From Chaetoderma sp. LZ-2023a (lineage: Eukaryota; Mollusca; Caudofoveata; Chaetodermatida; Chaetodermatidae): 64,000 bases of DNA. The DNA is taken from NCBI GenBank assembly GCA_034401795.1, contig CM067370.1, forward strand, positions 52,512,880 to 52,576,879, written 5' to 3'. The notes under the pieces are model-generated. The model searched no databases. It had not been told where the DNA came from and saw only the letters and a list, made by a program, of their open reading frames with translations. Positions within the stretch are counted from its first letter, which is position 1, and each line of letters opens with the position of its first letter. Both the position numbers and the translations under genes were made by a program. Of this stretch, positions 10,417-62,485 are shown piece by piece.

Positions 10417-10428
10417 CCCCTCTGAATA
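10411..10428 (+). promoter_or_regulatory. Promoter-like TTTAA site
   Basis: GTTTAACCCCTCTGAATA before the ATG at 10436. The same GTTTAACCCCTCT word recurs at 11703. Confidence 0.5.
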
Positions 10429-10435
10429 GTGAGAG

Positions 10436-10639: not shown

Positions 10640-10659
10640 TAGGTTTACGCCGTCTGTAT

Positions 10660-11171: not shown

Positions 11172-11242
11172 TCATGGCTTCCCCTGCATGTATCATACAG
11201 ATACTAGATTTACTAGACACTGTGGGTGCTGACACACGCCCT

Positions 11243-11695: not shown

Positions 11696-11702
11696 GGCAG
11701 CC

Positions 11703-11720
11703 GTTTAACCCCTCTATATA
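11703..11720 (+). promoter_or_regulatory. Promoter-like TTTAA-TATA site
   Basis: GTTTAACCCCTCTATATA, the cleanest copy of the element-wide promoter layout, ten bases before the ATG at 11731. Confidence 0.6.
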
Positions 11721-11730
11721 CCCAGACCTT

Positions 11731-12735: not shown

Positions 12736-12762
12736 GGTATGCGTGTCAAACACATCAGGTAT

Positions 12763-13141: not shown

Positions 13142-13142
13142 A

Positions 13143-13161
13143 CTATAGACTACAGTTTAAA
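13143..13161 (-). promoter_or_regulatory. Promoter-like TTTAA-TATA site
   Basis: Minus strand TTTAAACTGTAGTCTATAG, two bases before the ATG at 13141. Because TTTAAA is palindromic it could also serve the + strand gene at 13201. Confidence 0.55.
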
Positions 13162-13200
13162 GCTACTACATAACTGCCCCAGCGACGGATCCACAGAGCG

Positions 13201-13635: not shown

Positions 13636-13637
13636 GG

Positions 13638-15668: not shown

Positions 15669-16047
15669 GTAGTCAACGCGAGCACTGCATAGTCAACGCG
15701 AGCACTGCGTAGTCAACGCGAGCACTGCAGTCAACGGGGTCACTGCATAGTCAACGTGGTCACTGCATAGTCAACGCGAGAACTGCATAGTCAACGCGAG
15801 AACTGCATAGTCAACGCCAGCACTACGTAGTCAACGCGAGCAATGCGTAGTCAACGCCAGCACTGCATAGTCAAAGCAAGCACTGCGTAGTCAACGCGAG
15901 CACTGCAGTCAACACGAGCACTACATAGTCAACGCGAGCACTGCATAGTCAACGCGAGCACTGCATAGTCAAAGCGAGCACTGCATAGTCAAAGCGAGCA
16001 CTGCATAGTCAAAGCTAGTACTGCATAGTCAAAGTGAGCACTGCATA
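15669..16047. repeat. 20-bp minisatellite
   Basis: About 19 copies of a 20-bp unit, TAGTCAACGCGAGCACTGCA, with point variants (AAAGC for AACGC, GGTC for GAGC) and some shortened units. It lies in the intron ~150 bp before the exon at 16194. Confidence 0.95.
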
Positions 16048-16193
16048 GAATTAGAATGAAACCAGAACACTAAATTATATTCTTTGACAATTACACATTT
16101 CATGCACCTCAATTTCAAGGAGCTCGCTCGGGCGACTAATTGATATTGGTACAGACACCTATTTCCTCACCTCATAACACGTGTTCTTTGCAG

Positions 16194-17317: not shown

Positions 17318-17517
17318 ATCTTGATTGCCAGAAGGACAACTTGGACAAGATTGTCAATTTCAGAATGATGCTGTTTCATCTAATTTCCAACATAGATTTA
17401 TGATTAGTTGTATATATATGAATACAACTAATCATAAATCTATGTTGGAAATTAGATGAAACAGCATCATTCTGAAATTGACAATCTTGTCCAAGTTGTC
17501 CTTCTGGCAATCAAGAT
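17318..17517. repeat. Perfect 200-bp palindrome (96-bp arms, 8-bp loop)
   Basis: 17318-17413 is the exact reverse complement of 17422-17517, with the loop ATATATGA between. It starts 13 bases after the exon donor at 17305. The perfect arms mean a very young inverted duplication, or a template-switch or assembly artefact. As RNA it would form an uninterrupted ~96-bp hairpin in the intron. Confidence 0.95.
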
Positions 17518-22283: not shown

Positions 22284-23510
22284 GTAAGTAACATTAATAG
22301 TAAGGTAGCGTAATGCAATGAAGGGGACAGACTGGGCAAACGCATTAAATCTTCTGTGGCACTTTGGTTGGTCCTACTAATTACGTTTTTGCTAGGGTTC
22401 ATCAAGTGCCACATTGTTGGTTGTTGTCATGTGACATGCCATTCTTGTCATTGAATTATTAGGCAAAACTGGAAACTGAATAGATTACTAACATTTAAAT
22501 AATAAAAGAACAGTCAAATAAACAGAAGCTTAGATGTTTATATGGAAATCACACCAAGCAGCACATTGATACAATTTACATCTTGACATTGTCATTTATT
22601 AACAAGCTATTCAACTCAAAGATGTTTAAACGAATGGACAAGTGAAACTCTACTATTGTATAAAAATATACTAGCATGTCGTAAAGCTACACAGAAGCAG
22701 CCGCAATGCATAGCTCTGCGCATCGTCACTGAGCTTTCGTATATGCACATCTGCCACCACAGCAACTTCTGCTATTGCAGCCAGATTTCCCCAGCTATCT
22801 ACATGCTTTGGAAGCCACCGGACGCGTCTTCACATAATGTGTCAGCGAGGACTGTATTTGTACATTATCCATACTCATCAGTCAGGAGATAGTGCTTGTT
22901 TTCTGGACAGATTTCAGTCATGCACATCCTGCCTGGTAAGCAGCACGCTTCGAGTGCTGCAGTAGCGCATTTTGAGTTGGTGGAATGGTTTCCTTTTTTT
23001 TACTTTTCTGGCGATACCTCTCTCCGCATACCTCATTGACACAGTTCAGATGGCTGCTCTTGTGATATAGGACAATCGCATAGTGTTCAAGCAGCGTGAA
23101 ATCCCAGTGAATGGATTCTCTACCACGAACTTGAAATCTGCAGTTACCTCATGATATGACTTCCATGCCGATCGTCACCCTTTCCAAAAATGAAGAGGCT
23201 GTATCACAGCCAGTCGAACTATGGATGATTGGTAAGGCTATGGACTTGGATTCTCATAGTGCCTGGCAATTGCTTTAATGTGAAAATGGGCGAAATTCTT
23301 CCCTGTGTCGAAAGCTACTCACATGTCTGCAGCTGGCAATATACTCTGCAGGTGGTGAAACTTCACAATTAAGAGGACAATAACATCAGTATCCACAACG
23401 AACGAGACATGTGTCAGAGTGTTTCTGCAAAGCATTTTGCAAATGAAGCAATATTCTTGCATCTGTTTCTTCAGGGTAACTTTCTTGCATATTGCGGGTG
23501 GTTTTCATGT
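22284..23510. other. Intron DNA, possible 3' end of nuclease-like remnant
   Basis: No exon. The dead gene at 23511-24895 (minus strand) should have its C-terminal part here, but I could not read it convincingly. Confidence 0.4.
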
Positions 23511-24941: not shown

Positions 24942-24961
24942 TTTATTTATTTAGTTAGTTG

Positions 24962-25014
<53 letters not shown>

Positions 25015-25042
25015 CTAGTTAGCTAGTTAATTAGTTAGTTAT

Positions 25043-25086
<44 letters not shown>

Positions 25087-25122
25087 ATAGTCGGTTGGTT
25101 GGTTGGTTAATTAGTTAGTTAA

Positions 25123-25159
<37 letters not shown>

Positions 25160-25225
25160 CAGTCAGTCAGTCAGTCAGTCAGTCAGTCAGTCAGTCAGTT
25201 AATTAGTTAGTTAGTTAGTTAGTTA
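24942..25225. repeat. (TTAG)n / (TCAG)n microsatellite
   Basis: About 70 tetranucleotides, mostly GTTA, with an inner (TCAG)n block at 25157-25198. It is intronic and not a telomere, since the unit is four bases and it is flanked by unique DNA. Confidence 0.95.
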
Positions 25226-30241: not shown

Positions 30242-31105
30242 TCATAACTTGAAGGAATCACTCATGTCAGTAGTACCATTCACCCTGTCACATAGCATAT
30301 CAGTGATACCGTTCACAGCGTCCCATAGCATGCCATTGGCATCATTCACCACATCACATAACTTGTAAGTAATACCATTCACATAGTTGCATAACATGTT
30401 AGTAGGACAATTCACATAGCCACACAACATGTCAGTCATACCACCCACATAGTCACATAACATGTCAGTGATACCATTCACATAGTCACATAACATGTCA
30501 GTGATTCACATAGTCACATAACATGTCAGTGATACACTCACATAGTCACATAACATGTCAGTGATTCACATAGTCACATAACATGTCGTTGATTCACATA
30601 GTCACATAACATGTCAGTGATACCATTCACATAGTCACATAACATGTCAGTGATACCATTCGCATAGTCACATAACATGTCAGTGATACCATTCACATAG
30701 TCACATAACACGTCAGTGATTCATATAGTCACATAACATGTCAGTGATTCACATGGCCACATAAAATGTCAGTGATTCACATATCCACATAACATGTCGG
30801 TGATACCATTCTCCTAGCCACATACCATGTCAGTAGGACCATTCCCATAGCCACATACCATGTCAGTAGGACCATTCACATAGCCACATACCATGTCAGT
30901 AGGACCATTCACAAAGCCACATAGCATGTCATAGATACCATTCACATAGACACATACCATGTCAGTGATACCACTCACATAGCCACATAACATGTCAGTG
31001 ATACACATAGTCACATAACATGTCGGTGATTCACATAGCCACATAACATGTGAGTGATACCATTCACATAGCCGCATAGCAAGTTAGTGATACCATTCAA
31101 ATCGT
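30242..31105. repeat. 33-bp minisatellite
   Basis: About 26 imperfect units of CACATAGTCACATAACATGT + CAGTGATACCATT, with shorter ~21-23-bp variants in the middle. Because most units are a multiple of three, the minus strand stays open and reads as an 11-residue repeat (VNGITDMLCDY). That is a by-product, not a supported gene. Confidence 0.95.
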
Positions 31106-31108
31106 CCC

Positions 31109-31112
<4 letters not shown>

Positions 31113-33143: not shown

Positions 33144-33806
33144 TTATACACTTTTGTTTTCTGCAAGTTCATGCAGAATCTTAGGAACGTTGGTACACGT
33201 TTGTCCTATACACATCTTACAAATGGATGTGCAATCGAGTCCTAATTTCCTACAACCGCACAGTCTACCACAACTGGTTTTACAGCCACACGGTACCATG
33301 TGTAGTAGCTTATCTGGCGCTACAGAGTTTTCTGTTTCGACAGGTAGCGGCTTGTCCTCATGGTAACGCCAACTCCATTGAGTTGGTAAAAGGCAATTTC
33401 CCATCCACTGCTGTACTGTGAAGAATGCGCGATATGAATGTTGCTTAGCTGCAGTACTTGTTGGTGGCAGGGACTCCAACTTGAATGAAGCTGATATGGA
33501 TGAGCGGCTTATCATTTGACTGTACACTATGTATCAGTATTTATCTAGTGTTTTGACCTTCCGAGCTCCATATAGTCTGAGGAGGAATATTTCACCAGCA
33601 TCTGCAATGCCCCTTTTCGTAGCATTTGGGCTTATGAATACATCTAATTCGGTTAGCGTTTCATCACTTTCTATCAGAGCGGGTGCTTTCTTTTTGCCAT
33701 GTCCATATATGGCGGATACAGTGTCAAATCCTGTTAGGGCATGGGTGCCCAGCAAATGCTGCTTTGTGTCACCAATACTGTTCTGTATCGCTACAATATC
33801 ATACAC
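33144..33806 (-). pseudogene. Nuclease-like multi-copy gene, copy A, 3' part
   Basis: C-terminal part of the gene whose 5' part lies at 48869-51134 beyond the satellite. It begins in the array with VYDIVAIQNSIGDTKQ, then GTHALTGFDTVSAIYGHGKK, which resembles the helix-hairpin (H3TH) motif of FEN1/XPG nucleases (G-C/F-D ... I-x-G-x-G-x-K-x-A). Then comes GEIFLLRLYGARKVKTLDKY with an in-frame TGA (33534), a helical stretch, WSWRYHEDKPLPVE, and the tail MVPCGCKTSCGRLCGCRKLG plus CTSICKMC, a CXC-like Cys cluster, ending at a stop at 33144. Only one stop in 220 codons, so it is fairly young. Confidence 0.7.
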
Positions 33807-36800
33807 ACATACTGGATTAATGCTGTGATGTCATACACACATACTGGATTAATGCTGTGATATCATACACACATACTGGATTAATGCTGCGATATCATAC
33901 ACACATACAGGATTAATGCTGCGATATCATACACACATACTGGATTAATGCTGCGATTTCATACACACATACTGGATTAATGCTGTGATATCATACACAC
34001 ATACTGGATTAATGCTGTGATATCATACACACATACTGGATTAATGCTGTGATATCATAACAACACACTGGATTAATGTTGTGATATCATACACATGTAC
34101 TGGATTAATGCTGCGATATCATACACACATACTGGATTAATGCTGCGATATCATACACACATACTGGATTTATGCTGCGATATCATACACACATACTGGA
34201 TTAATGTTGGATATCATACACACATACTGGATTAATGTTGGATATCATACACACATACTGGATTAATGCTGTGATATCATACACACATACTGGATTAATG
34301 CTGCGATATCATACACACATACTGGAATAATGCTGCGATATCATACACACATACTGGATTAATGTTGGATATCATACACACATACTGGATTAATGCTGTG
34401 ATATCATACACACATACTGGATTAATGCTGTGATATCATACACACATACTTGATTAATGCTGTGATATCATACACACATTCTGGATTAAGGATGTGATAT
34501 CATACACACATACTGGATTAATGCTGCGATATCATACACACATACTGGATTAATGCTGCGATATCATACACACATACTGGAATAATGCTGCGATATCATA
34601 CACACATACTGGATTAATGTTGGATATCATACACACATACTGGATTAATGCTGTGATATCATACACACATACTGGATTAATGCTGCGATATCATACACAC
34701 ATACAGGATTAATGCTGCGATATCATACACACATACTGGATTAATGCTGCGATTTCATACACACATACTGGATTAATGCTGTGATATCATACACACATAC
34801 TGGATTAATGCTGTGATATCATACACACATACTGGATTAATGCTGTGATATCATAACAACACACTGGATTAATGTTGTGATATCATACACATGTACTGGA
34901 TTAATGCTGCGATATCATACACACATACTGGATTAATGCTGCGATATCATACACACATACTGGATTTATGCTGCGATATCATACACACATACTGGATTAA
35001 TGTTGGATATCATACACACATACTGGATTAATGTTGGATATCATACACACATACTGGATTAATGCTGTGATATCATACACACATACTGGATTAATGCTGC
35101 GATATCATACACACATACTGGAATAATGCTGCGATATCATACACACATACTGGATTAATGTTGGATATCATACACACATACTGGATTAATGCTGTGATAT
35201 CATACACACATACTGGATTAATGCTGTGATATCATACACACATACTTGATTAATGCTGTGATATCATACACACATTCTGGATTAAGGATGTGATATCATA
35301 CACACATACTGGATTAATGCTGCGATATCATACACACATACTGGATTAATGCTGCGATATCATACACACATACTGGATTAATGTTGCGATATCATACACA
35401 CATACTGGATTAATGGTGTGATATCACACACACATACTGGATTAATGGTGCGAAATCATACACACATACTGGATTAATGCTGCGATATCATATACACATA
35501 CTGGCTTAATGCTGTGATATCATACACACATACTGGATTAATGTTGCGATATCATACACACATACTGGATTAATGCTGTGATATCATACACACATACTGG
35601 ATTAATGCTGCGATATCATACACACATACTGGATTAATGCTGCGATATCATACACACATACTGGATTATGTTGCGATATCATACACACATACTGGATTAT
35701 GTTGCGATATCATACACACATACTGGATTAATGCTGTGATATCATACACACATACTGGATTAATGCTGCGATATCATACACACATACTGGATTAATGCTG
35801 TGATATCATACACACATACTTGATTAATACTGTGATATCATACACACATACTGGATTAATGCTGTGATATCATACACACATACTGGATTAGTGCTGCGAT
35901 ATCATACACACATACTGGATTAATGTTGTGATATTATACACACATACTGGATTAATGCTGTGATATCATAACAACATACTGGATTAATGTTGTGATATCA
36001 TACACACATACTGGATTAATGCTGTGATATCATACACACATACTGGATTAATGCTGTGATATCATACACACATACTGGATTAATGCTGTGATATCATACA
36101 TACATACTGGGTTAATGCTGTGATATCATAACAACATACTGGATTAATGTTGTGATATCATACACATGTACTGGATTAATGTTGGATATCATACATACAT
36201 ACTGGATTAATGCTGTGATATCATAACAACACACTGGATTAATGCTGCGATATCATACACACATACTGGATTAATGCTGCGATATCATACAAACATACTG
36301 GATTAATGCTGCGATATCATAAACACATACTGGATTAATGCTGTGATATCATACACACATACTGGATTAATGCTGTGATATCATACACACATACTGGATT
36401 AATGCTGCGATATCATACACACATACTGGATTAATGCTGTGATATCATACACACATACTGGATTAATGCTGCGATATCATACACACATACTGGATTAATG
36501 TTGCGATATCATACACATATACTGGATTAATGCTGTGATATCATACACACATACTGGATTAATGTTGCGATATCATACACACATACTGGATTAATGCTGC
36601 GATATCATACACACATACTGGATTAATGCTGTGATATCATACACACATACTGGATTAATGCTGTGATATCATAACAACATACTGGATTAATGCTGCGATA
36701 TCATACACACATACTGGATTAATGCTGTGATATCATACACACATACTGGATTAATGATGTGATATCATACACACATACTGGATTAATGTTGTGATATCAT

Positions 36801-39800
36801 ACACACATACTGGATTAATGCTGTGATATCATACACACATACTGGATTAATGCCGCGATATCATACACACATACTGGATTAATGCTGCGATATCATACAC
36901 ACATACTGGATTAATGTTGTGATATCATACACATATACTGGATTAATGCTGTGATATCATACATACATACTGGGTTAATGCTGTGATATCATAACAACAT
37001 ACTGGATTAATGTTGTGATATCATACACATGTACTGGATTAATGTTGGATATCATACATACATACTGGATTAATGCTGTGATATCATAACAACACACTGG
37101 ATTAATGTTGTGATATCATACACATGTACTGGATTAATGTTGGATATCATACACACATACTGGACTAATGCTGTGATATCATACACACATACTGGATTAA
37201 TGCTGCGATATCATACACACATACTGGATTAATGCTGCGATATCATACAAACATACTGGATTAATGCTGCGATATCATAAACACATGTACTGGATTAATG
37301 TTGGATATCATACATACATACTGGATTAATGCTGTGATATCATAACAACACACTGGATTAATGTTGTGATATCATACACACGTACTGGATTAATGTTGGA
37401 TATCATACACACATACTGGACTAATGCTGTGATATCATACACACATACTGGATTATGTTGCGATATCATACACACATACTGGATTAATGCTGTGATATCA
37501 TACACACATACTGGATTAATGCTGCGATATCATACACACATACTGGATTAATGCTGTGATATCATACACACATACTTGATTAATACTGTGATATCATACA
37601 CACATACTGGATTAATGCTGTGATATCATACACACATACTGGATTAATGCTGCGATATCATACACACATACTGGATTAATGTTGTGATATTATACACACA
37701 TACTGGATTAATGCTGTGATATCATAACAACATACTGGATTAATGTTGTGATATCATACACACATACTGGATTAATGCTGTGATATCATACACACATACT
37801 GGATTAATGCTGTGATATCATACACACATACTGGATTAATGCTGTGATATCATACATACATACTGGGTTAATGCTGTGATATCATAACAACATACTGGAT
37901 TAATGTTGTGATATCATACACATGTACTGGATTAATGTTGGATATCATACATACATACTGGATTAATGCTGTGATATCATAACAACACACTGGATTAATG
38001 TTGTGATATCATACACATGTACTGGATTAATGTGGGATATCATACACACATACTGGACTAATGCTGTGATATCATACACACATACTGGATTAATGCTGCG
38101 ATATCATACACACATACTGGATTAATGCTGCGATATCATACAAACATACTGGATTAATGCTGCGATATCATAAACACATACTGGATTAATGCTGTGATAT
38201 CATACACACATACTGGATTAATGCTGTGATATCATACACACATACTGGATTAATGCTGCGATATCATACACACATACTGGATTAATGCTGTGATATCATA
38301 CACACATACTGGATTAATGCTGCGATATCATACACACATACTGGATTAATGTTGTGATATCATACACATATACTGGATTAATGCTGTGATATCATACACA
38401 CATACTGGATTAATGTTGCGATATCATACACACATACTGGATTAATGCTGCGATATCATACACACATACTGGATTAATGCTGTGATATCATACACACATA
38501 CTGGATTAATGCTGTGATATCATAACAACATACTGGATTAATGCTGCGATATCATACACACATACTGGATTAATGCTGTGATATCATACACACATACTGG
38601 ATTAATGATGTGATATCATACACACATACTGGATTAATGCTGTGATATCATACACACATACTGGATTAATGTTGTGATATCATACACACATACTCGATTA
38701 ATGCTGTGATATCATACAAACATACTGGATTAATGCTGCGATATCATACACACATACTGGATTAATGCTGCGATATCATACACACATACTGGATTAATGC
38801 TGTGATATCATACATACATACTGGATTAATGTTGCGATATCATACACACATACTGGATTAATGCTGTGATATCATACACGCATACTGGATTAATGCTGCG
38901 ATATCATACACACATACTGGATTAATGCTGCGATTTCATACACACATACTGGATTAATGCTGCGATATCATACACACATACTGGATTAATGCTGCGATAT
39001 CATACACACATACTGGATTAATGCTGCGATATCATACACACATAATGCATTAATGTTGCGATATCATACACACATACTGGATTAATGCTGCGATATCATA
39101 CACACATACTGGATTAATGCTGTGATATCATACACACAAACTGGATTAAAGATGCGATATCATACACACATACTGGATTAATGCCGCGATATCATACACA
39201 CATACTGGATTAATGCTGCGATATCATACACACATACTGGATTAATGCTGCGATATCATACACACATACTGGATTAATGCTGCGATATCATACACACATA
39301 CTGGATTAATGCTGCGATATCATACACACATACTGGATTAATGCTGCGATATCATACACACATACTGGATTAATGCTGTGATATCATACACACATACTGG
39401 ATTAATGCTGTGATATCATACACACATACTGGATTAATGCTGTGATATCATACACACATACTGGATTAATGCTGCGATATCATACACACATACTGGATTA
39501 ATGCTGCGATATCATACACACATACTGGATTAATGTTGTGATATCATACACATATACTGGATTAATGCTGCGATATCATACACACATACTGGATTAATGC
39601 TGCGATATCATACACACATACTGGATTAATGCTGCGATATCATACACACATACTGGATTAATGCTGCGATATCATACACACATACTGGATTAATGCTGTG
39701 ATATCATACACACATACTGGATTAATGCTGCGATATCATACACACATACTGGATTAATGTTGCGATATCATACACACACACTTGATTAATGCTGCGATAG

Positions 39801-42800
39801 CATACACACATACTGGATTAATGCTGCGATATCATACACACATACTGGATTAATGCTGTGATATCATACACACATACTGGATTAATGTTGTGATATCATA
39901 CACACATACTGGATTAATGCTGTGATATCATACACACATACTGGATTAATGCTGCGATATCAAACACACATACTGGATTAATGCTGCGATATCATACACA
40001 CATACTGGATTAATGTAGTGATATCATACACACATACTGGATTAATGTAGTGATATCATACACATATACTGGATTAATGCTGCGATATCATACACACATA
40101 CTGGATTAATGCTGCGATATCATACACACATACTGGATTAATGCTGCGATATCATACACACATACTGGATTAATGCTGTGATATCATACACACATACTGG
40201 ATTAATGTTGTGATATCATACACACATACTGGATTAATGCTGTGATATCATACACACATACTGGATTAATGCTGTGATATCATAACAACATACTGGATTA
40301 ATGTTGTGGTATCATACACATGTACAGGATTAATGCTGTGATATCATACACACATACTGGATTAATGCTGCGATATCATACACACATACTGGATTAATGT
40401 TGGATATCATACACACATACTGGATTAATGTTGGATATCATACACACATACTGGATTAATGCTGTGATATCATACACACATACTGGATTAATGTTGTGAT
40501 ATCATACACACATACTGGATTAATGTTGTGATATCATACACACATACTGGATTAATGCTGCGATATCATACACACATACTGGATTAATGCTGTGATATCA
40601 TACACACATACTGGATTAATGCTGTGATATCATACACACATACTGGATTAATGTTGGATATCTTACACACATACTGGATTAATGCTGCGATATCATACAC
40701 ACATACTGGATTAATGTTGGATATCTTACACACATACTGGATTAATGCTGTGATATCATACACACATACTGGATTAATGTTGGATATCTTACACACATAC
40801 TGGATTAATGCTGTGATATCATACACACATACTGGAGTAATGCTGTGATATCATACACACATACTGGATTAATGCTGTGATATCATACACACATACTTGA
40901 TTAATGCTGTGATATCATACACACATACTGGATTAATGTTGTGATATCATACACACATACTGGATTAATGCTGCGATATCATACACACATACTGGATTAA
41001 TGTTGTGATATTATACACACATACTGGATTAATGCTGTGATATCATAACAACATACTGGATTAATGTTGTGATATCATACACACATACTGGATTAATGCT
41101 GTGATATCATACACACATACTGGATTAATGCTGTGATATCATACACACATACTGGATTAATGCTGTGATATCATACATACATACTGGGTTAATGCTGTGG
41201 TATCATAACAACATACTGGATTAATGTTGTGATATCATACACATGTACTGGATTAATGTTGGATATCATACATACATACAGGATTAATGCTGTGATATCA
41301 TAACAACACACTGGATTAATGTTGTGATATCATACACATGTACTGGATTAATGTTGGATATCATACACACATACTGGACTAATGCTGTGATATCATACAC
41401 ACATACTGGATTAATGCTGCGATATCATACACACATACTGGATTAATGCTGCGATATCATAAACACATACTGGATTAATGCTGTGATATCATACACACAT
41501 ACTGGATTAATGCTGTGATATCATACACACATACTGGATTAATGCTGCGATATCATACACACATACTGGATTAATGCTGTGATATCATACACACATACTG
41601 GATTAATGCTGCGATATCATACACACATACTGGATTAATGTTGTGATATCATACACATATACTGGATTAATGCTGTGATATCATACACACATACTGGATT
41701 AATGTTGCGATATCATACACACATACTGGATTAATGCTGCGATATCATACACACATACTGGATTAATGCTGTGATATCATACACACATACTGGATTAATG
41801 CTGTGATATCATAACAACATACTGGATTAATGCTGCGATATCATACACACATACTGGATTAATGCTGTGATATCATACACACATACTGGATTAATGATGT
41901 GATATCATACACACATACTGGATTAATGTTGTGATATCATACACACATACTGGATTAATGCTGTGATATCATACACACATATTGGATTAATGCTGCGATA
42001 TCATACACACATACTGGATTAATGTTGTGATATCATACACACATACTGGATTAATGCTGTGATATCATACACACATACTGGATTAATGCTGCGATATCAT
42101 ACACACATACTGGATTAATGCTGCGATATCATACACACATACTGGATTAATGCTGTGATATCATACACACATACTGGATTAATGTTGCGATATCATACAC
42201 ACATACTGGATTAATGCTGTGATATCATACACGCATACTGGATTAATGCTGCGATATCATACACACATACTGGATTAATGCTGCGATATCATACACACAT
42301 ACTGGATTAATGCTGCGATATCATACACACATACTGGATTAATGCTGCGATATCATACACACATACTGGATTAATGCTGCGATATCATACACACATAATA
42401 GATTAATGTTGCGATATCATACACACATACTGGATTAATGCTGCGATATCATACACACATACTGGATTAATGCTGTGATATCATACACACATACTGGATT
42501 AATGTTGGATATCTTACACACATACTGGATTAATGCTGTGATATCATACACACATACTGGAGTAATGCTGCGATATCATACACACATACTGGATTAATGT
42601 TGTGATATCATACACATATACAGGATTAATGCTGCGATATCATACACACATACTGGATTAATGCTGTGATATCATACACACATACTGGATTAATGCTGTG
42701 ATATCATACACACATACTGGATTAATGCTGTGATATCATACACACATACTGGATTAATGCTGCGATATCATACACACATACTGGATTAATGTTGTGATAT

Positions 42801-45800
42801 TATACACACATACTGGATTAATGCTGTGATATCATAACAACATACTGGATTAATGTTGTGATATCATACACACATACTGGATTAATGCTGTGATATCATA
42901 CACACATACTGGATTAATGCTGTGATATCATACACACATACTGGATTAATGCTGTGATATCATACATACATACTGGGTTAATGCTGTGATATCATAACAA
43001 CATACTGGATTAATGTTGTGATATCATACACATGTACTGGATTATTGTTGTGATATCATACACATGTACTGGATTAATGTTGGATATCATACATACATAC
43101 TGGATTAATGCTGTGATATCATAACAACACACTGGATTAATGTTGTGATATCATACACACGTACTGGATTAATGTTGGATATCATACACACATACTGGAC
43201 TAATGCTGTGATATCATACACACATACTGGATTAATGCTGCGATATCATACACACATACTGGATTAATGCTGCGATATCATAAACACATACTGGATTAAT
43301 GCTGTGATATCATACACACATACTGGATTAATGCTGCGATATCATACACACATACTGGATTAATGCTGCGATATCATACACACATACTGGATTAATGCTG
43401 TGATATCATACACACATACTGGATTAATGCTGCGATATCATACACACATACTGGATTAATGTTGTGATATCATACACATCTACTGGATTAATGCTGTGAT
43501 ATCATACACACATACTGGATTAATGTTGCGATATCATACACACATACTGGATTAATGCTGCGATATCATACACACATACTGGATTAATGCTGTGATATCA
43601 TACACACATACTGGATTAATGCTGTGATATCATAACAACATACTGGATTAATGCTGCGATATCATACACACATACTGGATTAATGCTGTGATATCATACA
43701 CACATACTGGATTAATGATGTGATATCATACACACATACTGGATTAATGTTGTGATATCATACATACATACTGGATTAATGCTGTGATATCATACACACA
43801 TACTGGATTAATGCTGCGATATCATACACACATACTGGATTAATGTTGTGATATCATACACACATACTGCATTAATGCTGTGATATCATACACACATACT
43901 GGATTAATGCTGCGATATCATACACACATACTGGATTAATGCTGCGATATCATACACACATACTGGATTAATGCTGTGATATCATACACACATACTGGAT
44001 TAATGTTGCGATATCATACACACATACTGGATTAATGCTGTGATATCATACACGCATACTGGATTAATGTTGCGATATCATACACACATACTGGATTAAT
44101 GCTGCGATATCATACACACATACTGGATTAATGCTGCGATATCATACACACATACTGGATTAATGCTGCGATATCATACACACATACTGGATTAATGCTG
44201 CGATATCATACACACATAATAGATTAATGTTGCGATATCATACACACATACTGGATTAATGCTGCGATATCATACACACATACTGGATTAATGCTGTAAT
44301 ATCATACACACAAACTGGATTAATGATGCGATATCATACACACATACTGGATTAATGCCGCGATATCATACACACATACTGGATTAATGCTGCGATATCA
44401 TACACACATACTGGATTAATGTTGTGATATCATACACATATACAGGATTAATGCTGCGATATCATACACACATACTGGTTTAATGCTGCGATATCATACA
44501 CACATACTGGATTAATGCTGCGATATCATACACACATACTGGATTAATGCTGTGATGTCATACACACATACTGGATTAATGCTGTGATATCATACACACA
44601 TACTGGATTAATGCTGCGATATCATACACACATACTGGATTAATGCTGCGATATCATACACACATACTGGATTAATGCTGCGATATCATACACACATACT
44701 GGATTAATGTTGTGATATCATACACATATACTGGATTAATGCTGCGATATCATACACACATACTGGATTAATGCTGCGATATCATACACACATACTGGAT
44801 TAATGCTGCGATATCATACACACATACTGGATTAATGCTGCGATATCATACACACATACTGGATTAATGCTGTGATATCATACACACATACTGGATTAAT
44901 GTTGGATATCATACACACATACTGGATTAATGCTGCGATATCATACACATATAATGGATTAATGCTGCGATATAATACACACATATTGGATTAATGTTGG
45001 ATATCATACACACATACTGGATTAATGCTGTGATATCATACACACATACTGGATTAATGCTGCGATATCATACACACATACTGGATTAATGTTGGATATC
45101 ATACACACATACTGGATTAATGCTGTTATATCTATCATACACACATACTGGATTACTGCTGTGATATCATACACACATACTGGATTAATGCTGCGATATC
45201 ATACACACATACTGGTTTAATGCTGTGATATCATACACACATTCTGGATTAATGGTGCGATATCATACACACATACTGGATTAATGCTGGGATATAATAC
45301 ACACATACTGGATTAATGCTGCGATATCATACACACATACTGGATTAATGCTGTGATATCATACACACATACTGGATTAATGATGCGATATCATACACAC
45401 ACTGGATTAATGATGTGATATCATACACACATACTGGATTAATGCTGCGATATCATACACACATACTGGATTAATGCTGCGATATCATACACACATACTG
45501 GATTAATGCTGCGATATCATACACACATACTGGAGTAATGCTGTGATATCATACACACATACTGGATTCATGCTGCGATATCATACACATATACTGGATT
45601 AATGCTGCGATATCATACACTCATACTGGATTAATGCTGCGATATCATACACACATACTGGATTAATGTTGTGATATCATATACACATACTGGATTAATG
45701 CTGCGATATCATACACACATACTGGATTAATGCTGTGATATCATACACACATACTGGATTAATGCTGCGATATCATATACACATACTGGATTAATGTTGC

Positions 45801-48800
45801 GATATCATACACACATACTGGATTAATGTTGTGATATCATACACACATACTGGATTAATGTTGTGATATCATACACACATACTGGATTAATGCTGTGATA
45901 TCATACACACATACTGGATTAATGATGCGATATCATACACACATACTGGATTAATGCCGCGATATCATACACACATACTGGATTAATGTTGCGATATCAT
46001 ACACACATACTGGATTAATGTTGTGATATCATACACATATACAGGATTAATGCTGCGATATCATACACACATACTGGATTAATGCTGCGATATCATACAC
46101 ACATACTGGATTAATGCTGCGATATCATACACACATACTGGATTAATGCTGTGATATCATACACACATACTGGATTAATGCTGTGATATCATACACACAT
46201 ACTGGATTAATGCTGCGATATCATACACACATACTGGATTAATGCTGCGATATCATACACACATACTGGATTAATGCTGCGATATCATACACACATACTG
46301 GATTAATGTTGTGATATCATACACATATACTGGATTAATGCTGCGATATCATACACACATACTGGATTAATGCTGCGATATCATACACACATACTGGATT
46401 AATGCTGCGATATCATACACACATACTGGATTAATGCTGCGATATCATACACACATACTGGATTAATGCTGTGATATCATACACACATACTGGATTAATG
46501 TTGGATATCATACACACATACTGGATTAATGCTGCGATATCATACACATATAATGGATTAATGCTGCGATATAATACACACATATTGGATTAATGTTGGA
46601 TATCATACACACATACTGGATTAATGCTGTGATATATACACACATACTGGATTAATGCTGCGATATCATACACACATACTGGATTAATGTTGGATATCAT
46701 ACACACATACTGGATTAATGCTGTGATATATATCATACACACATACTGGATTACTGCTGTGATATCATACACACATACTGGATTAATGCTGCGATATCAT
46801 ACACACATACTGGATTACTGCTGTGATATCATACACACATACTGGATTAATGCTGCGATATCATACACACATACTGGATTAATGTTGTGATATCATACAC
46901 ACATACTGGATTAATGCTGCGATATCATACACACAAACTGGATTAATGCTGCGATATCATACACACATACTGGATTAATGCTGTGATATCATACACACAT
47001 ACTGGATTAATGATGCGATATCATACACACACTGGATTAATGATGTGATATCATACACACATACTGGATTAATGCTGCGATATCATACACACATACTGGA
47101 TTAATGCTGCGATATCATACACACATACTGGATTAATGCTGCGATATCATACACATACTGGAGTAATGCTGTGATATCATACACACATACTGGATTCATG
47201 CTGCGATATCATACACATATACTGGATTAATGCTGCGATATCATACACTCATACTGGATTAATGCTGCGATATCATACACACATACTGGATTAATGTTGT
47301 GATATCATATACACATACTGGATTAATGCTGCGATATCATACACACATACTGGATTAATGCTGTGATATCATACACACATACTGGATTAATGCTGCGATA
47401 TCATATACACATACTGGATTAATGTTGCGATATCATACACACATACTGGATTAATGTTGTGATATCATACACACATACTGGATTAATGTTGTGATATCAT
47501 ACACACATACTGGATTAATGCTGTGATATCATACACACATACTGGATTAATGCTGTGATATCATAACAACATACTGGATTAATGTTGTGATATCATACAC
47601 ACATACTGGATTAATGCTGCGATATCATACACACATACTGGATTAATGTTGTGATATCATACACACATACTGGATTAATGCTGTGATATCATACACACAT
47701 ACTGGATTAATGCTGTGATATCATAGACACATACTGGATCAATGCTGTGATATCATACACACATACTGGATTAATGCTGTGATATCATACACACATACTG
47801 GATTAATACCGCGATATCATACACACATACTGGATTAATGCTGCGATATCATACACACATACTGGATTAATGCTGCGATATCATACACACATACTAGATT
47901 AATGCTGCGATATCATACACACATACTGGATTGATGCTGCGATATCATACACACATACTGGATTAATGCTGCGATATCATACACACATACTGGATTAATG
48001 CTGTGATATCATACACACATACTGGATTAATGCTGCGATATCATACACACATACTGGATTAATGCTGTGATATCATACCCACATACTGGATTAATGCTGT
48101 GATATCATACACACATACTGGATTAATGCTGTGATATCATAGACACATACTGGATCAATGCTGTGATATCATACACACATACTGGATTAATGCTGTGATA
48201 TCATACACACATACTGGATTAATACCGCGATATCATACACACATACTGGATTAATGCTGCGATATCATACACACATACTGGATTAATGCTGCGATATCAT
48301 ACACACATACTAGATTAATGCTGCGATATCATACACACATACTGGATTGATGCTGCGATATCATACACACATACTGGATTAATGCTGCGATATCATACAC
48401 ACATACTGGATTAATGCTGTGATATCATACACACATACTGGATTAATGCTGCGATATCATACACACATACTGGATTAATGCTGTGATATCATACACACAT
48501 ACTGGATTAATGATGTGTTATCATACACACATACTGGATTAATGCTGTGATATCATATACACATACTGGATCAATGCTGTGATATCATACACACATACTG
48601 GATTAATGATGTGATATCATACACACATACTGGATTAATGTTGCGATATCATACACACATACTGGATTAATGCTGCGATATCATACACACATACTGGATT
48701 AATGTTGTGATACCATACACACATACTGGATTAATGTTGTGATACCATGCACACATACTGGATTAATGTTGCGATATCATACACACATACCGGATTGATG

Positions 48801-48900
48801 CTGTGATATCATACACACATACTGGATTAATGTTGCGATATCATACACACATACTGGATTAATGTTGTGATATCATACGCACATACTGGATTAATGCTAC
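33790..48900. repeat. 15.1-kb satellite array, 32-bp unit, ~470 copies, inside a gene
   Basis: Head-to-tail units containing CATACACACATACTGGATTA then ATGCTG(T/C)GATAT. The period is 32 bp, with some 31-bp units (GTTGGATATC). The minus strand of a unit reads INPVCVYDI, which is in frame with the flanking gene at both edges. The outermost bases are GCTAC at both ends (33790-33794 and 48896-48900). Longer blocks are re-duplicated inside: shared rare variants recur at offsets of ~796 bp (33905/34701), ~1599 bp (44951/46550) and 416 bp (47723/48139). Open frames in the array are repeat artefacts. Confidence 0.97.
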
Positions 48901-51134
48901 ACATCATGTAAATACACATTCCTGAAGTTGCTAGCGATATTAGCATGAGCAACAAGTCTGTGCCAGTTCCAATAGCAACCAGGGATCTGGAACAATTTTG
49001 TGCTAGTGATAATGCCGTTGACACAATGCGACTGTCAGCATCACATTCAGCTTGTATCACACTAAGACAACAGCTTAACTCACTTAACATTGTAATTAGC
49101 CTCGATCTCTTCTTATTGCTTGACCGCAAGTATGTTTGTTTCATCGTAATCTGCATACCACCATCAAAGATGCTGTTCAGCTGTTCTCGTAGAGCTGTGA
49201 CTTTCGTAGCCATCGAAGACAATGGTCGTTTTTGCACCGTAATGGCTAAATGTATATGACAGATATGAGTCACACACGTTTCTATATGTTGCCTTGACAG
49301 GCCATGTAACACTATGGATGAGATGACCGCCATCCACGACAAACACAGAATCATCTGGCAAATTGCTTTGGACAGTCACCTTTGATTTCAATAACACACT
49401 GAGTGTACTCCTTGCTGTTTTCCTCATGAGTCAGCCATGAAAGAGTGCAGCAGGCTGAGGCGCTTGCTCATAAGCTAAGAAACTGTCCATTTCAGATGTG
49501 TCTTTTATCATACAGGTAATTATGTTGAAAGGTTACTTAGGGTTAACTTCTACTGATTGGCCACGGATTTGGACTGTGTTTGTTACATCACCTATTGCCT
49601 TCACTCTATCATTTCGATGCGATTTTATATCTGTGAAGGTTTGATGTGTAATGGCATTAGCTGCATTACGACCTAAATCATGCATTTTCACAATTTACTA
49701 CTTTATCTGTCACGAGACCAGTAGAGATAGACACTAAAGAATCACATGTGGAAAATCAAAATGGCGAATGTGTATGGAGCCACTGTACACATATATCATG
49801 GTCTTTATGGTCACGTACTTCAGTACTGGCACGCCAGTCCTTATGCTGCTCAGATGAATTAGTCTGGACACCTGTACACCTTTCAAGTGTATCACAGAGA
49901 GGTATGCAGTGTGGTAGGGCATGGGTCCAATTTGTTAGGGAACTGTCCATGATTCCACGTCCATGTGTCATTCCTCCGGAGGTTTTTAGTTGACGCATTA
50001 GATTCTGCTCAAAGGTTTGGTCTGAAAAGTTTCCACTCCAGAAGTGATCAGTACGACGTATTGTGAAGTATCCAATGCCGGTAAATAGCTTATATTCAGC
50101 TCGTGGCATTGTAGTTTCCAGCGATTTCGTCTGCTGTAAATAGAGTCACGCCGATTTTGCATACGTGAGTTCGCTCAGCATGAAGGAACAACCGTATGTT
50201 AGAGACCCAAAGTTTCCCTGTCCGGCTTTTATTTGCTTCATCTTCCGCTAACTACGAAAGAATACTTGTAATCTGTTGCACACTAACTTCGCAGGCGAAT
50301 GAGGTTTAGCATACGATTTGATAGGAATATGTCCAAACTGTCCCACTACCTCACCAGTTGCTATTTTAGTGCAGCGATTAAGAACATCCTGCTTAGCATC
50401 ACCTGGTGGAGTAACACATGCGATTCCACCTATGGAATGAAACGTGTTATGGTCCGTAAGTGTAGCAATGTCAAAGTCTCCATTGCCAAAGAGAAACTGT
50501 GTGAAACCATTTAGATTATAATATTGTTCACCACTTGTAAGAAATTAATACATTAGCTTCTGCACTTCTCTGTAATTGTCTGAGAAGCTCAATGCTACTT
50601 AAAGTGTCAATTAGCTCCCGTGATGCATACTTCCGATGTATGTAAACTGCAATAGCTATGCAAATTGGAGAGAGGAATGATCTTTGTCGACATGCAGATA
50701 TTATAGCGTGGGATATCGATGTAAAACGCCGGTCCACATTTGAAGATTGGTTTGGTTTTTTACTTTACAACTCCATGCAGAAAGCGATCGAGTGCTTCAG
50801 GAACTAACGTTGATCCATTGTCCGTGTTTTCCCTTGTAGGGTATGGAGAAGAATTGTATATTTGTGCTCTGATATCATCTCTAATAATTGATGCTGCCAC
50901 GTCGATTATATGGTTTCTCACACTCAAAACACCAGTGTGTTGGTCAGACGCCCACCTTTCATGAAGAATGTTGTACCTGACATCACGAAAACTGATAACA
51001 GTAGATTTCCCTGGTAAGCTTGTTGCAATTATTCGATCACCGTAGTATGTCTGTAATCTGTGTTTGAGATAGTACCCGGAATATCCATTAGTTCCATTCA
51101 AATAGTCTTCCATAAGCTCTACAAGTTCAGACAC
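48869..51134 (-). pseudogene. Nuclease-like multi-copy gene, copy A, 5' part
   Basis: Minus strand. N-terminal blocks: MSELVELMEDYLNGTNGYSG and VISFRDVRYNILHERWASD (51134-50760); ISHAIISACRQRSFLSPICI and YASRELIDTLSSIELL (50737-50528); TLTDHNTFHSIGGIACVTP (about 50450); GYFTIRRTDHFWSGNFSDQT, GGMTHGRGIMDSSLTNWTHA (50109-49756). Then a PIN-like core: VFVVDGGHLIHSV, TIVFDGYES (49427-49164), AECDADSRIVSTAL and GTGTDLLLMLISLAT (to 48930). The Asp residues at these five places are arranged like the metal-binding acids of PIN/FEN nucleases. It then enters the satellite through MMCSINPVC. About four frameshifts. Nuclease assignment is inference from motif order. Confidence 0.7.
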
Positions 51135-51179
51135 GTAATATTGGCACTCATCGTTTTCATCGGAACTTTGAATGCCTTC

Positions 51180-52560
51180 TCATCTTCCGCTGTTTAATTG
51201 ATGTTAGTAATGACATGGGCTCCTATGAGAACGGGTACAAAGGCTCATGATAGCGGTCAGTGAACCGTTCCCTGAACCATTCTCGAATTGCCTCGACTAT
51301 GCCCTGGCCAGTTCCGATAATGTGCCCTGCAGATGTGTGTACAGTGAGTGGTGGTGTGTAGTTAGTAACTCTCAGGGCTCAGGCTGCCCTAAACATTGTG
51401 TGACAGTTACCCGTGGCAGTGATTTCATTTGCTAAGGATTTTGTTTGTTAAATTGCAAGATATGTTATTGCGTTCACTGTGTGGTTTGGCTGGGTCTTCA
51501 CTTTCGCCACTTCGATAGATGTGGAGCTATAATGCTTTCTACTCTGCTGATCCTGTGGTGTTGGCAGTTGATGATTCCATACAGTTCAATATTTTGTTTA
51601 GGGCTTCGTTTGAATATGAGCTGATGTCGATGTTAGCTATTTGCTTACCAAGGGCCTTTTTGTATGACATTTGCGTCTATGCCATCTTGCCTGGTATGGC
51701 GTTTATACATTATCTAGAGATTGTTCATATGAAGGCGTGTAACAACTGGCTTATTTCCAAAATTGGGGTCTGCACCCCCACCGGAAAGAGCATCCTGAAT
51801 AGGGGTTTTGCTTATGTTTTGGGCAGTATGAACTCTCTTTTGTTGAAGACTACTGTTGTATCCCTTTTGGGCTTTGCGATCAGCAATGTGTTCCGCCAAT
51901 GTTTTATGGTGACGGCAATGATGGCAAATAGACAACTGGAACTTAGGAATGCCACCAGTGCATCTCCATTGCCGTGACTTTGCATTTACTATTATTCACG
52001 AGGCCGTCCATCCACCACTGAACATGTCCATTCTTTGCACGCGGGATTAAGGCTACTGACATCCACGACTAACCCTAACCTAATATGTTAGGATAGCACT
52101 AGGCTATAGGGCCACAAAGGACACACATTGGCTAACAACTCAGGCATGTCTCCAACTAGGCGACCATGTCCTTGGGAGTAGATGCGAGTATCTGCGAGTG
52201 GTTGAGCGCTTGAAATACTCTCTAGGTGCGAGAGGATTGCCTCACAACCGCTCACAAGTGCGTGTAGGTGGTTGCCGTCTGCACGGCGTGGTCGGCAGCG
52301 CACGCACCTAGTTTAACATGTTCAAACCTTCTACGAACCCCATAAGCATTCGCTGACGGTCGCAAGTCGATCTTAACTCACTCGCAACGCAACGTATGAG
52401 GAGGGTGATCGCAATGCCTCTCAGTCCTCTAGTGGTCTCAAGTTTGCTCGCAATAAATAGACAATTCTCCCAAACCGAGTGAATCGCTGCGACAGCCCAT
52501 CTTACACGTTGCAAGTACGTTGCACTCAATCGCCTGCGTGTGCGAATATATCAATAGGTT
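51180..52560. other. Flank of copy A, possible further 5' remnants
   Basis: Minus-strand pieces (for example ALNKILNCMESSTANTTGSA near 51600 and HHCRHHKTLAEHIADRKAQK near 51900) look weakly coding and could be the start of the same gene. The plus-strand ORF 51519-51977 is their shadow. 52080-52560 is rich in GCGA/TCGC words. Confidence 0.3.
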
Positions 52561-57884: not shown

Positions 57885-58715
57885 GACTCTATAGTGCAGA
57901 CTGTCATGTATCAAAAACAGTCCCGTAGGAATTGAATGCCCACAGTGAGATAGTGGTTGATTTCACTTCATTATGGTGTAAAACGAAGAAAATTGTAGGC
58001 AACAATTTTTTCGACACCTGTGACCCTGTAGGATCCAAAAAAACAAGATGATCGCCGTCGCTCATGGAAACTACAGGGAATGCCATATATCTAGAACTGC
58101 TTGGCCAATTTCAATAAAGTTTGTCCTTTTTATGTTTTACAAATATGGCTGATCATTTGGAATAGGTTTCAGGTCGATAGGAAGTCAAGGTCGTGCACCA
58201 AGGACAAAGTCACATTCAATTTTGGCCTACCGCTGCAGAAATATGAGCGCATCTGGAGGTAATTGATCAGTTTGTATGATGTTAGACTCTACCGTTGTGT
58301 TTTCAAACATGCCCAATCATTTGCAATAGGGTCTATCTCGATAGGAGGTCAAGATCGCAGAGAAAGGTGCAGGTCATATTCATTTTAGCCTTTCGGTACG
58401 GAAATCGGAGCACCTCTGGAGTGAAATGATCAATTTGCATGATCTTAGACGTTATTGTATGGTTTTCAATCATGCCTGTACATTTGGATTATGTTTTAGT
58501 TTGATATGAGGTCAAATGTCGGGCCTCATAGTCAATGCCATTTTTAACCACTCGGTGAAGAAATATGAGTACCACTCGAGTTAATTGATCAATTTGCATG
58601 ATGTCTGAATGTGTTGCAGGGTTTTCACACCTGTCTGTTCATTTTAATCAACTTTCAGGTCGATTGGACTTCAAAGTCACATGGTCAGGTCAAAAGAAAC
58701 GTCAACATATGATGA
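57885..58715. repeat. Left inverted arm with ~160-bp subrepeats
   Basis: Unit marks GATCA(G/A)TTTG(T/C)ATGAT recur at 58265, 58428 and 58588. Outer end near CTATAGTGCAGACTGTCATG. Confidence 0.65.
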
Positions 58716-59154: not shown

Positions 59155-61564
59155 TCATGCATCGTTGTCTTCATCTTCCATCATCCTGTAGTTAGGAATG
59201 TTGCTGCAATCACTAGTGTGATATTTGCAGAGCGCAGTATATGGGAGGTTGTTCTTCTTGCATGAGCAGTGACCCTTGCAAGATGTCTGGCAACCACATT
59301 TGATCAGCTCTACGTCAGCAACCAACTGCTGCTGGTTTGTAGAGGCACTAGGCTGGGACATACTCCCTGCCAGGCACCCATTCATACTCTTCTTGCGGCG
59401 GTAGGCATTGGTGAGGTGTTGTATAGCTTTTGCCCCTCATAGCTACAAAGTTCGTATGTAGGATATTGGGCAACAGTGTTGCTCTTGTCGGAGGAAGCTT
59501 TTCACCCTCCATATGTTTTGTCCTGAACCGTTCCCATCACAAAGCTGGTATGCTAGTTGGACCTCCAGTACTGTATACTGAGCACACGCACCTCTCGATA
59601 GGCCACACTTCTTTGTGCAGCTCACCGCCCACCATTCAGGCCTTGGCACTTCTCTTCACCAATAACACTCACACGGTCAGGAATGTTGATCGATCGATAT
59701 TTGTTGCCTTTCCCAGTAAGGAACCTGACGTTGGTGAATGTACCTAGTCGTCCATGAGCCACACGATCCATCAACAAGATCAGTGCGCCAGTGTCAGGCG
59801 ACCATACATCTATCTCCCTCGGTGTGAAGTCTTGGAGGGGCATCGATCACATGCAGAGGAATTATGGTGTCTGCCTCCTCATGATAATGAGCAGACATGG
59901 ACTCTGCTAAAAAGTGGGGTGAATTGATCTGAACCGTGGTACCCTTCACAACCACCACCTTCTTCTTTGACCCTTTGTGTGCCTCCAGTACAGCATCACC
60001 AACTGTGTTAGAGTTGATCGCCTTTGGCATGGGGGCAGCTCTTTAAGGATAACCGTTGCGATTGTCATCTCGTCATGGATTGCAAACTTCATCTCATTTC
60101 CCTGTGTTCGCCCTCGTCGTTTGCTTCAGTGATTGACCGACGCTTCACCGTCCATGTGATTCTCTTAACAAATGCCTCCTTGAAGTTGAGGATCTTTTTC
60201 ATGCTTGGACATTTTTTTATATAATGAATAACAGCCCTGCTGTCAATGATAATAACATGGCCATGTGATTCAACGGAGTCAATGATGAGAATGCTGAGAT
60301 GGACATTGTGTGTATCATCATGTGCTGGTCGCTGGATGGTTGATTCTCGTGGTGATGTCTGTATTTCAGTCTGAAAGGGCTTTGCCTCCTCAACAACATG
60401 TATGATGGCTGCTTTGTCTGTTGGAATAATGAGTGATCCATCTGAGGCAAACATTGACCCCGGTGTTACCACCATCTTGTAATCGCCAATGGTTGCAGGC
60501 AGGCGAGGAACTAGCTCTGGACGTGACTGTTGAATGCCGTGGAAGCGGGCAAGGAGTTGTCTCTCGTCTCGGAGTTTGATGACCTCTTCTACTACACTCA
60601 CACGCATCTTCGCCATCCATGTGTTCAAGGTCTTGAGCTTTATCTTCTTGATTGCACCCCACACATACATGGGTGCGGCAGGTACAAGACGATTCTGAGC
60701 AAGCTTTCGATAGCCCCCTGTCCCATCTCATCGCGGCTGAGCATGTCCTCCTTGGAACATTCCAGAATCAGCACTGATGACACAATGCTCTTTAGTGGTG
60801 TCTCCACAATGAAGGGGTTACCTTCGCAGTGGATTTGGATGGATTCCCTCAGCTTCAGCACATACCTGATTGGTCGTACGGCGATGTCGTCAGAAAGCTG
60901 ATAATGCTCACCTGAAGAGGGAGAGGCAGCTGAGAAGCGCCGAAATCCACACAGCCAATCACTGACGATAGAGGTGATGTGGGACAATGTGGTGATAACA
61001 CGGTCAAGTGAGACCTCATCTTGCATAATACCCACAAGATGCCCAACCCCTTTCAACTCCTTGATCTTCTGTTCAGGGCCTGATCTACAAAGAGTGCAGT
61101 GAAGGGCGAGTCAGATTGTTTTACACAGTAGTTTCCCTCCTTTAGTGCCTTCCACGTTGTCTGGTCATCATTTTCAAGCTGGTTCATTTGGGCCCGTTGG
61201 ATAGGCTTAGTGCGTGCGTAGTGGTACAGGTCATGAGCGAAGAAGTACTGGATCTGATCGTCCAGTGCAGCCAGATACGTCTCCCAGTCGCCAGATGGCA
61301 TGCACTGATGATGTGCAGTAGACACTTGACCTGTTTCATGTAGTTTGTCAAGAAGCGGGCCAGCTTCCTAGCATCCATACCAATAATCTTAGATTCTATC
61401 TGATTCGTGATCAGTATAATGCGATGCCAAGTCGTTGTAGATGTCTGCAACGTTCTCACTTCTCTGGTGAAGGCTGGATTTGAGTTGCTCGCACTTTCTC
61501 CGGAGAGGCGCATCAGGAGATATTTCTCCCAATACTGCATCAAACTTGAAGATGAAACAGGCAA
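59155..61564 (-). pseudogene. Nuclease-like multi-copy gene, copy B
   Basis: Minus strand, in order: MQYWEKYLLM (61540), FFAHDLYHYARTKPIQRAQM and DSPFTALFVDQALN (61325-61060), GVGHLVGIMQDEVSLDRVIT (61056), CEGNPFIVETPLKSIVSSVL, LNTWMAKMRVSVVEEVIKLR and PELVPRLPATIGDYKMVV (60670-60450). Then come SMSAHYHEEADTIIPLHVID (59930), DVWSPDTGALILLMDRVAHG with FTNVRFLTGKGNKYRSINIP (59820-59650), and the tail VELIKCGCQTSCKGHCSCKK (59300). EEADT and SPDT(G) occupy the places of the nuclease-core acids of copy A. The second Asp of the usual DTD is Gly here. At least seven frameshifts. It lies between inverted arms, so it was probably the element's own gene. Confidence 0.7.
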
Positions 61565-61829: not shown

Positions 61830-62485
61830 GCCTTGACCTTGCTGCATGACCTTAACTTCCTATCGATCTGCAACATACTGCAAATAATCATGCATGTCTG
61901 AAAACTATACAATAGAGTCTAACACAAATTGATCAATTAACTCGCCAGGTGTTCATATTTCTGCACCGAGAGTCCAAAATTGGCTGTGACCTTGACCTTT
62001 CTCTGTGACCTGAACCTCTTATCGAGATAAAAGCAATTTCAAATAATCGGGCATGTTTGAAAACCCAACAATAGAGGTTAACATCATACAAATTGATCAA
62101 TTAACTCCAGAGATACTCATATTTCTGCAACGAGAGGCCAAAAATGATGTTGACCTTGACCGTGTCATAACCTTGACCTCTTGTTGACCTGAAACCAGTT
62201 TCAAATGATCGGGCTTATTTGAACACCCCAAAATCGACTCTAACATCATTGAAATTGGTCAAGTGGTTCCAGAGATATGCCATTCTTTGTAGTATCCATA
62301 AGCGATGGTGGCCATTTTAGATTTTTTGTACCCTACAGGGTTCACGGGTGTCAAAAAAATTATTACCTAAGATTGTTCTTCATTTCACACCCTAATGAAG
62401 TGAAATCAACCACTATCTCGCTTTTGGCATGCATTTCCTACGGAAAGTACATCCCAGTCTACACTACAAGTGCTGATTGCACAAC
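61830..62485. repeat. Right inverted arm with ~160-bp subrepeats
   Basis: Inverted partner of 57885-58715. Marks AATTGATCAATTAACTC recur at 61928 and 62092, with a weaker one (AAATTGGTCAAGTGGTTCCA) at 62250. The outer end is near AGTCTACACTACAAGTGCTG. Confidence 0.65.

Follow-up and report, generated by a model that had tools for sequence, protein, structure and literature searches.

The window analyzed here, a stretch of 64,000 nucleotides from the mollusc Chaetoderma sp. LZ-2023a (contig CM067370.1 of assembly GCA_034401795.1, positions 52,512,880 to 52,576,879), contains a gene fragment on the minus strand (~49.4 kb to 33.1 kb) that is split by a single tandem array of 473 units of 32 bp. 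We consider it probable that this array is a minisatellite that was born in the gene that it interrupts, by a slip between two copies of the hexamer TGTAGC and subsequent amplification of a mutated founder junction.

The minus-strand reading of the gene enters the array as ...CIYMMCSINPVCAYDI and leaves it as INPVCVYDIVAIQNSIGD, in an identical reading of the unit. On the entry side the gene reads ...GTGTDLLLMLISLATSGMCIYMMC, followed by SINPVCAYDI within the first unit, and on the exit side the last unit reads INPVCVYDI and continues into VAIQNSIGDTKQHLLGTHALTGFDTVSAIYGHGKKKA. When the array was swapped by script for a single unit, both flanks joined in one open frame. In this one-unit reading, 52 residues separate the TDLL block from the GFDT block, compared with 55 in a distant relative of the gene product (P0007, below). 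Cutting the array down to one TGTAGC loses the frame, and a stop follows within a few residues. The initial annotation had described about 470 units of 32 bp inside the gene, flanks that enter and leave the array in one reading of the unit, and gene blocks that stand at the expected distance once the array is removed. These descriptions hold, the second being confirmed on the minus strand from the list of open reading frames (ORFs).

The edges of the array carry the gene's own hexamer. Within the one-unit site and ~100 flanking bases of gene to either side, TGTAGC is the sole exact direct repeat of at least 6 bp at lag 32, and both copies, 32 bp apart in that site, fall exactly on the array edges. 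Matches of at least 6 at this lag bracket 0.22% of the 43501 non-repeat positions of the window. In the Haber-Louis model of how minisatellites arise (Haber and Louis 1998, as outlined in passages of PMC6947457 and cited in PMC2820488), slippage or unequal exchange first duplicates a motif that lies between direct repeats of 5-10 bp, and the motif is then amplified as the unit. The locus resembles this, as direct repeats of 6 bp bracket the 32-bp motif that became the unit.

Relatives of the gene and the one-unit site

A protein search with the 129-aa tail piece of the gene returned 8 relatives among 9 candidates at E 1 (best E 7.7e-42). None of the three candidates obtained with the 98-aa 3' piece was accepted at E 0.001, and none of the 61 obtained with the 182-aa 5' piece at E 10. 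Relatives were also absent in five scans, of viral contigs (with the 26-mer core of the unit, the 3' piece, P0007 and the alignment A1) and of genome contigs (with A1). These scans say little, because the collections are viral and prokaryotic and the gene is taken to be eukaryotic.

Only P0007, a distant relative, crosses the array site, and it is also the only one of the eight that covers the 5' flank. With this flank, BLASTP aligns residues 3-60 of the protein, up to CIY (36% of 58, E 1e-8), and with the 3' flank residues 73-161, from VYDI onward (34% of 90, E 4e-15). VYDI sits in the last unit of the array, and its counterpart in P0007 is LYNI. Consistent with this placement, the tblastn match of P0007 to the unmasked window begins at 33806, within the array. 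The interval between its two matches is 12 residues long in P0007 and nine (MMCSINPVC) in the one-unit reading, and the one-unit site aligns with P0007 end to end, the gaps being one of 3 residues at the site and three short ones elsewhere. A second relative, P0005, starts at the place where P0007 matches VYDI (start MYNCTEIQHAIGDT versus VYDIVAIQNSIGDT, E 1e-13). It reads MYNC and then TEIQHAIGDT versus VAIQNSIGDT, agreeing at MYN.

The alignment score to P0007 depends on the number of units left at the site. One unit scores 180, and zero (joined at one TGTAGC), two or three units each score 79. Four units, which are back in frame, score 159, and one unit minus its nine residues scores 167.

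Derivation of the array unit from the gene's own coding exon is supported by these data, with limits. Each unit had been read initially as a copy of the gene's coding segment, and an intact relative carrying SINPVCVYDI once was named as the support to look for. The in-frame one-unit site and the VYDI/LYNI match favor the claim, and P0007 does have one segment of similar length with LYNI. The SINPVC half found no recognizable counterpart in this distant relative, which does not confirm the claim for that half.

Units, internal junctions and growth of the array

Tandem Repeats Finder reports a period of 32 and 472.9 copies. A wrap-around alignment gave identical ends and 473 units, the first of which is partial (29 nt); 433 of the 473 units are 32 nt long, 33 are 31 nt and seven have other lengths. 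An earlier parse of the units by a fuzzy pattern, which recovered 307 cores only, is superseded by this alignment. The coding-strand sequence of the unit is C[A/G]CA[G/A]C-ATTAATCCAGTATGTGTGTATGATAT. The mean difference between units and consensus is 2.8%, with the common A/G choice at the second hexamer position left out. Divergence stays flat toward the edges: the differences per unit average 0.90 close to the 5' edge, 0.90 in the middle and 0.85 in the last 20 units. There are 95 distinct unit forms among the 473 units, and their mix shifts along the array.

Because 32 is not a multiple of 3, the reading frame rotates from unit to unit. The three coding-strand frames of the array contain 308, 318 and 311 stops and the longest open stretch is 88 codons. 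Thus, the array is not a coding repeat, and with this period and 308-318 stops per frame it lacks the properties of an in-frame coding tandem repeat.

None of the 472 internal junctions is TGTAGC. The commonest are CGCAGC (173), CACAGC (159), CACAAC (55), a one-base-shorter form (29) and CGCAAC (24), and others are rarer. The internal hexamer has C at position 3 in 472/472 junctions and at position 1 in 470/472. As TGTAGC is absent from all internal junctions, the array probably grew from one mutated founder junction.

Long exact repeats are abundant within the array. The longest exact block, of 751 bp, recurs 796 bp away, and other long blocks measure 496 and 479 bp. Among the matches listed, exact blocks of at least 200 bp recur at distances of up to 6961 bp. 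Exact repeats of at least 300 bp span 43.7% of the array (0 in 20 unit permutations), and those of at least 200 bp span 61.1% (mean of 1.2% in 20 unit permutations). Long exact repeats so far exceed those among permuted units that growth seems to have occurred by many-unit blocks as well as by single units. Both the array length and the block duplications were read from the assembled sequence.

In the rest of the 64-kb window the matches to the unit, searched in two rotations and without a shuffled control, are all short and local (11-20 bp, scores 19-25). Its exact 26-mer core was found in none of the viral contigs scanned.

Probable birth of the array and competing explanations

We infer the following order of events. 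The ancestral gene would have carried TGTAGC twice, 32 bp apart, around a stretch coding for approximately SINPVCVYDI. Slippage or unequal exchange between these 6-bp repeats would have been the first step, creating a tandem duplication. The internal junction of the dimer, or of a very short array, may then have mutated from TGTAGC to CGCAGC or CACAGC, by transitions only. The core plus its mutated junction would have been amplified to 473 copies, singly and in blocks of hundreds of bases, and the outermost, gene-side hexamers would have stayed unchanged. The model needs no function for the array, and none is attributed to it here. A 32-bp duplication shifts the frame, and so it fits a gene that was already dead or that was killed by the duplication itself.

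Several observations weigh against this account. The founder junction is reconstructed from the sequence and was not seen directly, and in the commonest internal junctions two to four of the six letters depart from TGTAGC. An insertion with a 6-bp target-site duplication would likewise leave TGTAGC on both edges. The residues of the segment carry limited signal in comparison to P0007: shuffling the nine residues gives an equal or better score in 351/5000 cases, and random 9-mers do so in 1937/5000. Some other translations of the unit outscore 180 (187 on the same strand and 189 on the opposite strand), and random in-frame inserts of 20-50 nt average 175-178. P0007 has three residues more at the site, and the SINPVC half of the segment is not recognizably conserved in it. 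The window's two other degraded copies of the gene align at the site no better than shuffles (469/1000 and 627/1000). Given the scores of the random in-frame inserts, what P0007 constrains is mainly the frame and the rough length, and the letters less so. With such weak tests of the segment itself, exon origin rests on frame, length, VYDI and edge structure jointly, and not on residue identity alone.

Insertion of a pre-existing satellite, or of a mobile element bearing one, with TGTAGC as the 6-bp target-site duplication, would explain why the hexamer stands at both edges and at no internal junction, and the scores of random in-frame inserts, which come near that of the real unit, suit it as well. 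We regard insertion as unlikely. Excision down to one TGTAGC should then restore the gene, yet it puts the flanks out of frame with an early stop, and the score to P0007 falls from 180 to 79. The gene-side TGTAGC is also in phase with the internal junction hexamer and has 4 of 6 letters in common with CGCAGC, and a random insertion would be expected to close the 32-bp period only about once in 32. Finally, LYNI of P0007 matches VYDI within the last unit.

A second alternative retains the gene segment as the source of the array and makes the first duplication independent of TGTAGC (for example by template switching or end joining), so that the 6-bp match arose by chance. It draws on the same internal junctions, none of which is TGTAGC, and on the reconstructed state of the founder. 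This alternative appears very unlikely: such bracketing occurs at only 0.22% of the positions considered above, and the differences of the commonest junctions from TGTAGC are transitions. A third possibility, that misassembly of a short repeat tract accounts for most of the array length, is extremely unlikely: a misjoined assembly could also give long exact blocks (751, 496 and 479 bp), but 95 unit forms in a shifting mix are unlike a simple copied contig, and both array edges pass into unique gene sequence, in order.

Birth by slippage between the gene's hexamers thus remains the preferred explanation, and it can be compared with known systems. Minisatellites are described as having "up to 100 repeat units" in a passage of PMC6947457 and as spanning "0.5 kb to several kilobases" in one of PMC2820488. 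The array described here, at 473 units and 15 kb, is larger. It departs further from the minisatellites of the Haber-Louis model: its source is a segment of a gene, and mutation of the internal junction apparently preceded most of the amplification. Slipped-strand mispairing at noncontiguous repeats (Taylor and Breden 2000, cited in PMC2820488) is in principle the same birth model, to judge from the title and the citation. In tandem repeats derived from transposable elements, a segment of the element becomes the array unit, and the sources mentioned in the relevant part of PMC6947457 are short and long interspersed nuclear elements (SINE, LINE), long terminal repeat (LTR)-type elements and miniature inverted-repeat transposable elements (MITE). 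Here the source is a coding segment of an uncharacterised gene family. A likeness is possible, as the gene could be part of a mobile element.

No account of a comparable exon-born array was found, judged by titles and abstract openings. In antifreeze glycoprotein genes a short coding segment has been amplified in place, and the repeat is translated and functional. In contrast, the period of the present array breaks the frame and the gene is dead.

Overall, the evidence supports a gene-born minisatellite of very large size, formed by a known type of birth within a gene copy that is dead, and its origin can be read at both edges. In many large tandem arrays the source of the unit is no longer visible. 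At this locus the source, the likely birth step and the block growth can be read together, because the edges keep the gene's hexamer and frame and the internal junctions carry an apparent early founder mutation. The locus offers a direct test of whether slippage between short repeats can lead to arrays beyond the usual minisatellite range. A bolder reading, which we hold to be very unlikely, would see the seed stage of a new satellite family, in which a 6-bp slip in a multicopy gene yielded a unit whose mutated founder junction grew to 15 kb at a single locus. That unit may already have started to spread, or to affect the gene family from which it came. If so, it might act, for example, as a source of small RNA against transcripts that bear the segment.

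The interrupted gene and its surroundings

Positions of the array, its edges and the gene pieces are collected in Table 1.

Table 1. The minisatellite array, its flanking hexamers and the pieces of the interrupted gene, in window coordinates.
Feature	Position	Strand	Basis
6-bp direct repeat TGTAGC, 5' copy, bordering the first unit on the gene side	48896..48901	-	exact run at lag 32, one-unit site
6-bp direct repeat TGTAGC, 3' copy, bordering the last unit on the gene side	33790..33795	-	exact run at lag 32, one-unit site
32-bp minisatellite array, 473 units	33796..48898	-	Tandem Repeats Finder; wrap-around alignment and column counts
Gene flank 5' of the array, DADSRIVSTALSLAQ...GTDLLLMLISLATSGMCIYMMC	48899..49375	-	ORF list; BLASTP to P0007, E 1e-8
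Upstream piece in a different frame, with VFDGYES	49164..49430	-	ORF list
Gene flank 3' of the array, VAIQNSIGDTKQHLLGTHALTGFDTVSAIYGHGKKKA..., helix-3-turn-helix-like block	33534..33795	-	ORF list; BLASTP; family profile E 4e-20
Rest of the 3' coding region past the in-frame stop, SLPPTS.AA.QHSYR...VQQW.GN and cysteine-rich tail	33144..33533	-	8 relatives, best E 7.7e-42; family profile E 2e-56
Further open pieces (51714-51995, 50760-51179, 50248-50544, 49756-50145)	49756..51995	-	ORF list

The gene copy is dead, and the damage is not confined to the array. Near 33.53 kb the relatives align across an in-frame stop. The frame probably changes near 49.2 kb, as the neighboring open frames suggest for a region that lies outside the coverage of any relative. 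The open frame of the 5' flank continues into the array as far as 48827. Going by their order and strand, the further open pieces upstream may represent what is left of the gene's N-terminal part. Pfam gave no match for them, and no homology search beyond the window was made with these pieces.

By eye, the gene agrees with a FEN/XPG-like nuclease. This identity is plausible and was not established by searches, and the labels "nuclease core" and "H3TH" (helix-3-turn-helix) of the initial annotation are likewise plausible, being unconfirmed by sequence searches of Pfam and PDB. In the PDB search with the 3' piece, FEN1 makes up 13 of the 18 listed matches (E 1.2-1.7), behind methionine synthase (E 0.62), and FEN1 is absent from the five matches obtained when the first 12, array-encoded residues are removed. 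Nucleases were also absent from the PDB searches with P0007, which gave one match (an uncharacterized protein, E 1.6), and with the upstream piece, whose 13 matches are all fatty-acid-binding proteins (E 0.49-0.69). The VFDGYES of this upstream piece would be a nuclease-core-like motif, a name that the searches did not confirm. No Pfam match above cut-off was obtained for eight gene pieces or for three of the eight relatives, and the whole window has no Rfam match at the gathering threshold. The predicted structure of P0007 is poor (mean predicted local distance difference test score, pLDDT, of 51.3, and below 50 over residues 1-107). The gene might be a member of a DNA transposon family, for which an Academ-type element was considered. 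Literature pairing Academ with "XPG nuclease" was not found; PMC10294476 names Academ, and neither XPG nor nuclease occurs in its main text.

Two further broken copies of the gene were recognized by eye on the minus strand. One, at 22900-23500, reads VDTDVIVLLIVKFHHL...TGKNFAHFHIKAIARHYENP, with HSSTGCDTASS in another frame. The other, at 59158-60000, has HYHEEADT and FLTGKGNKYRSINI upstream of a cysteine-rich tail (59158-59436), which matches the family profile at E 1.6e-6. Since their alignment at the array site is no better than that of shuffled sequence, the copies at 22.9-23.5 kb and 59.2-60.0 kb were not used as evidence.

A 33-bp minisatellite is present at 30263-31110, ~2 kb beyond the gene's 3' end. 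This period is divisible by three, and CDYVNGITDML repeats are encoded in a minus-strand ORF (30242-30505). Kinship of this array (30.3 kb) with the 32-bp unit is not claimed: the local score of 20 was equalled by 6 of 300 shuffles, in an uneven test that used 11 of the 33 rotations per shuffle and all 33 for the real unit.

Inverted repeats of ~123 bp (94% identical, 4535-4657 and 14450-14572) enclose 10 kb of mostly higher GC content (~0.5). An ORF on the plus strand within this interval (13901-14299) has a weak match to an integrase core (PF00665, E 1.2e-4, below cut-off), and 4535-14572 looks like a mobile element. Also present are a 200-bp palindrome (17318-17517, 98% self-complementary) and an inverted pair of ~575 bp (57923-58495 and 61872-62443, 78% identical), possibly a dispersed repeat. 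Further arrays occur at 4-695 (41-bp period), 15670-16048 (20-bp) and 24943-25225 (4-bp, TTAG), and the region is rich in tandem repeats.

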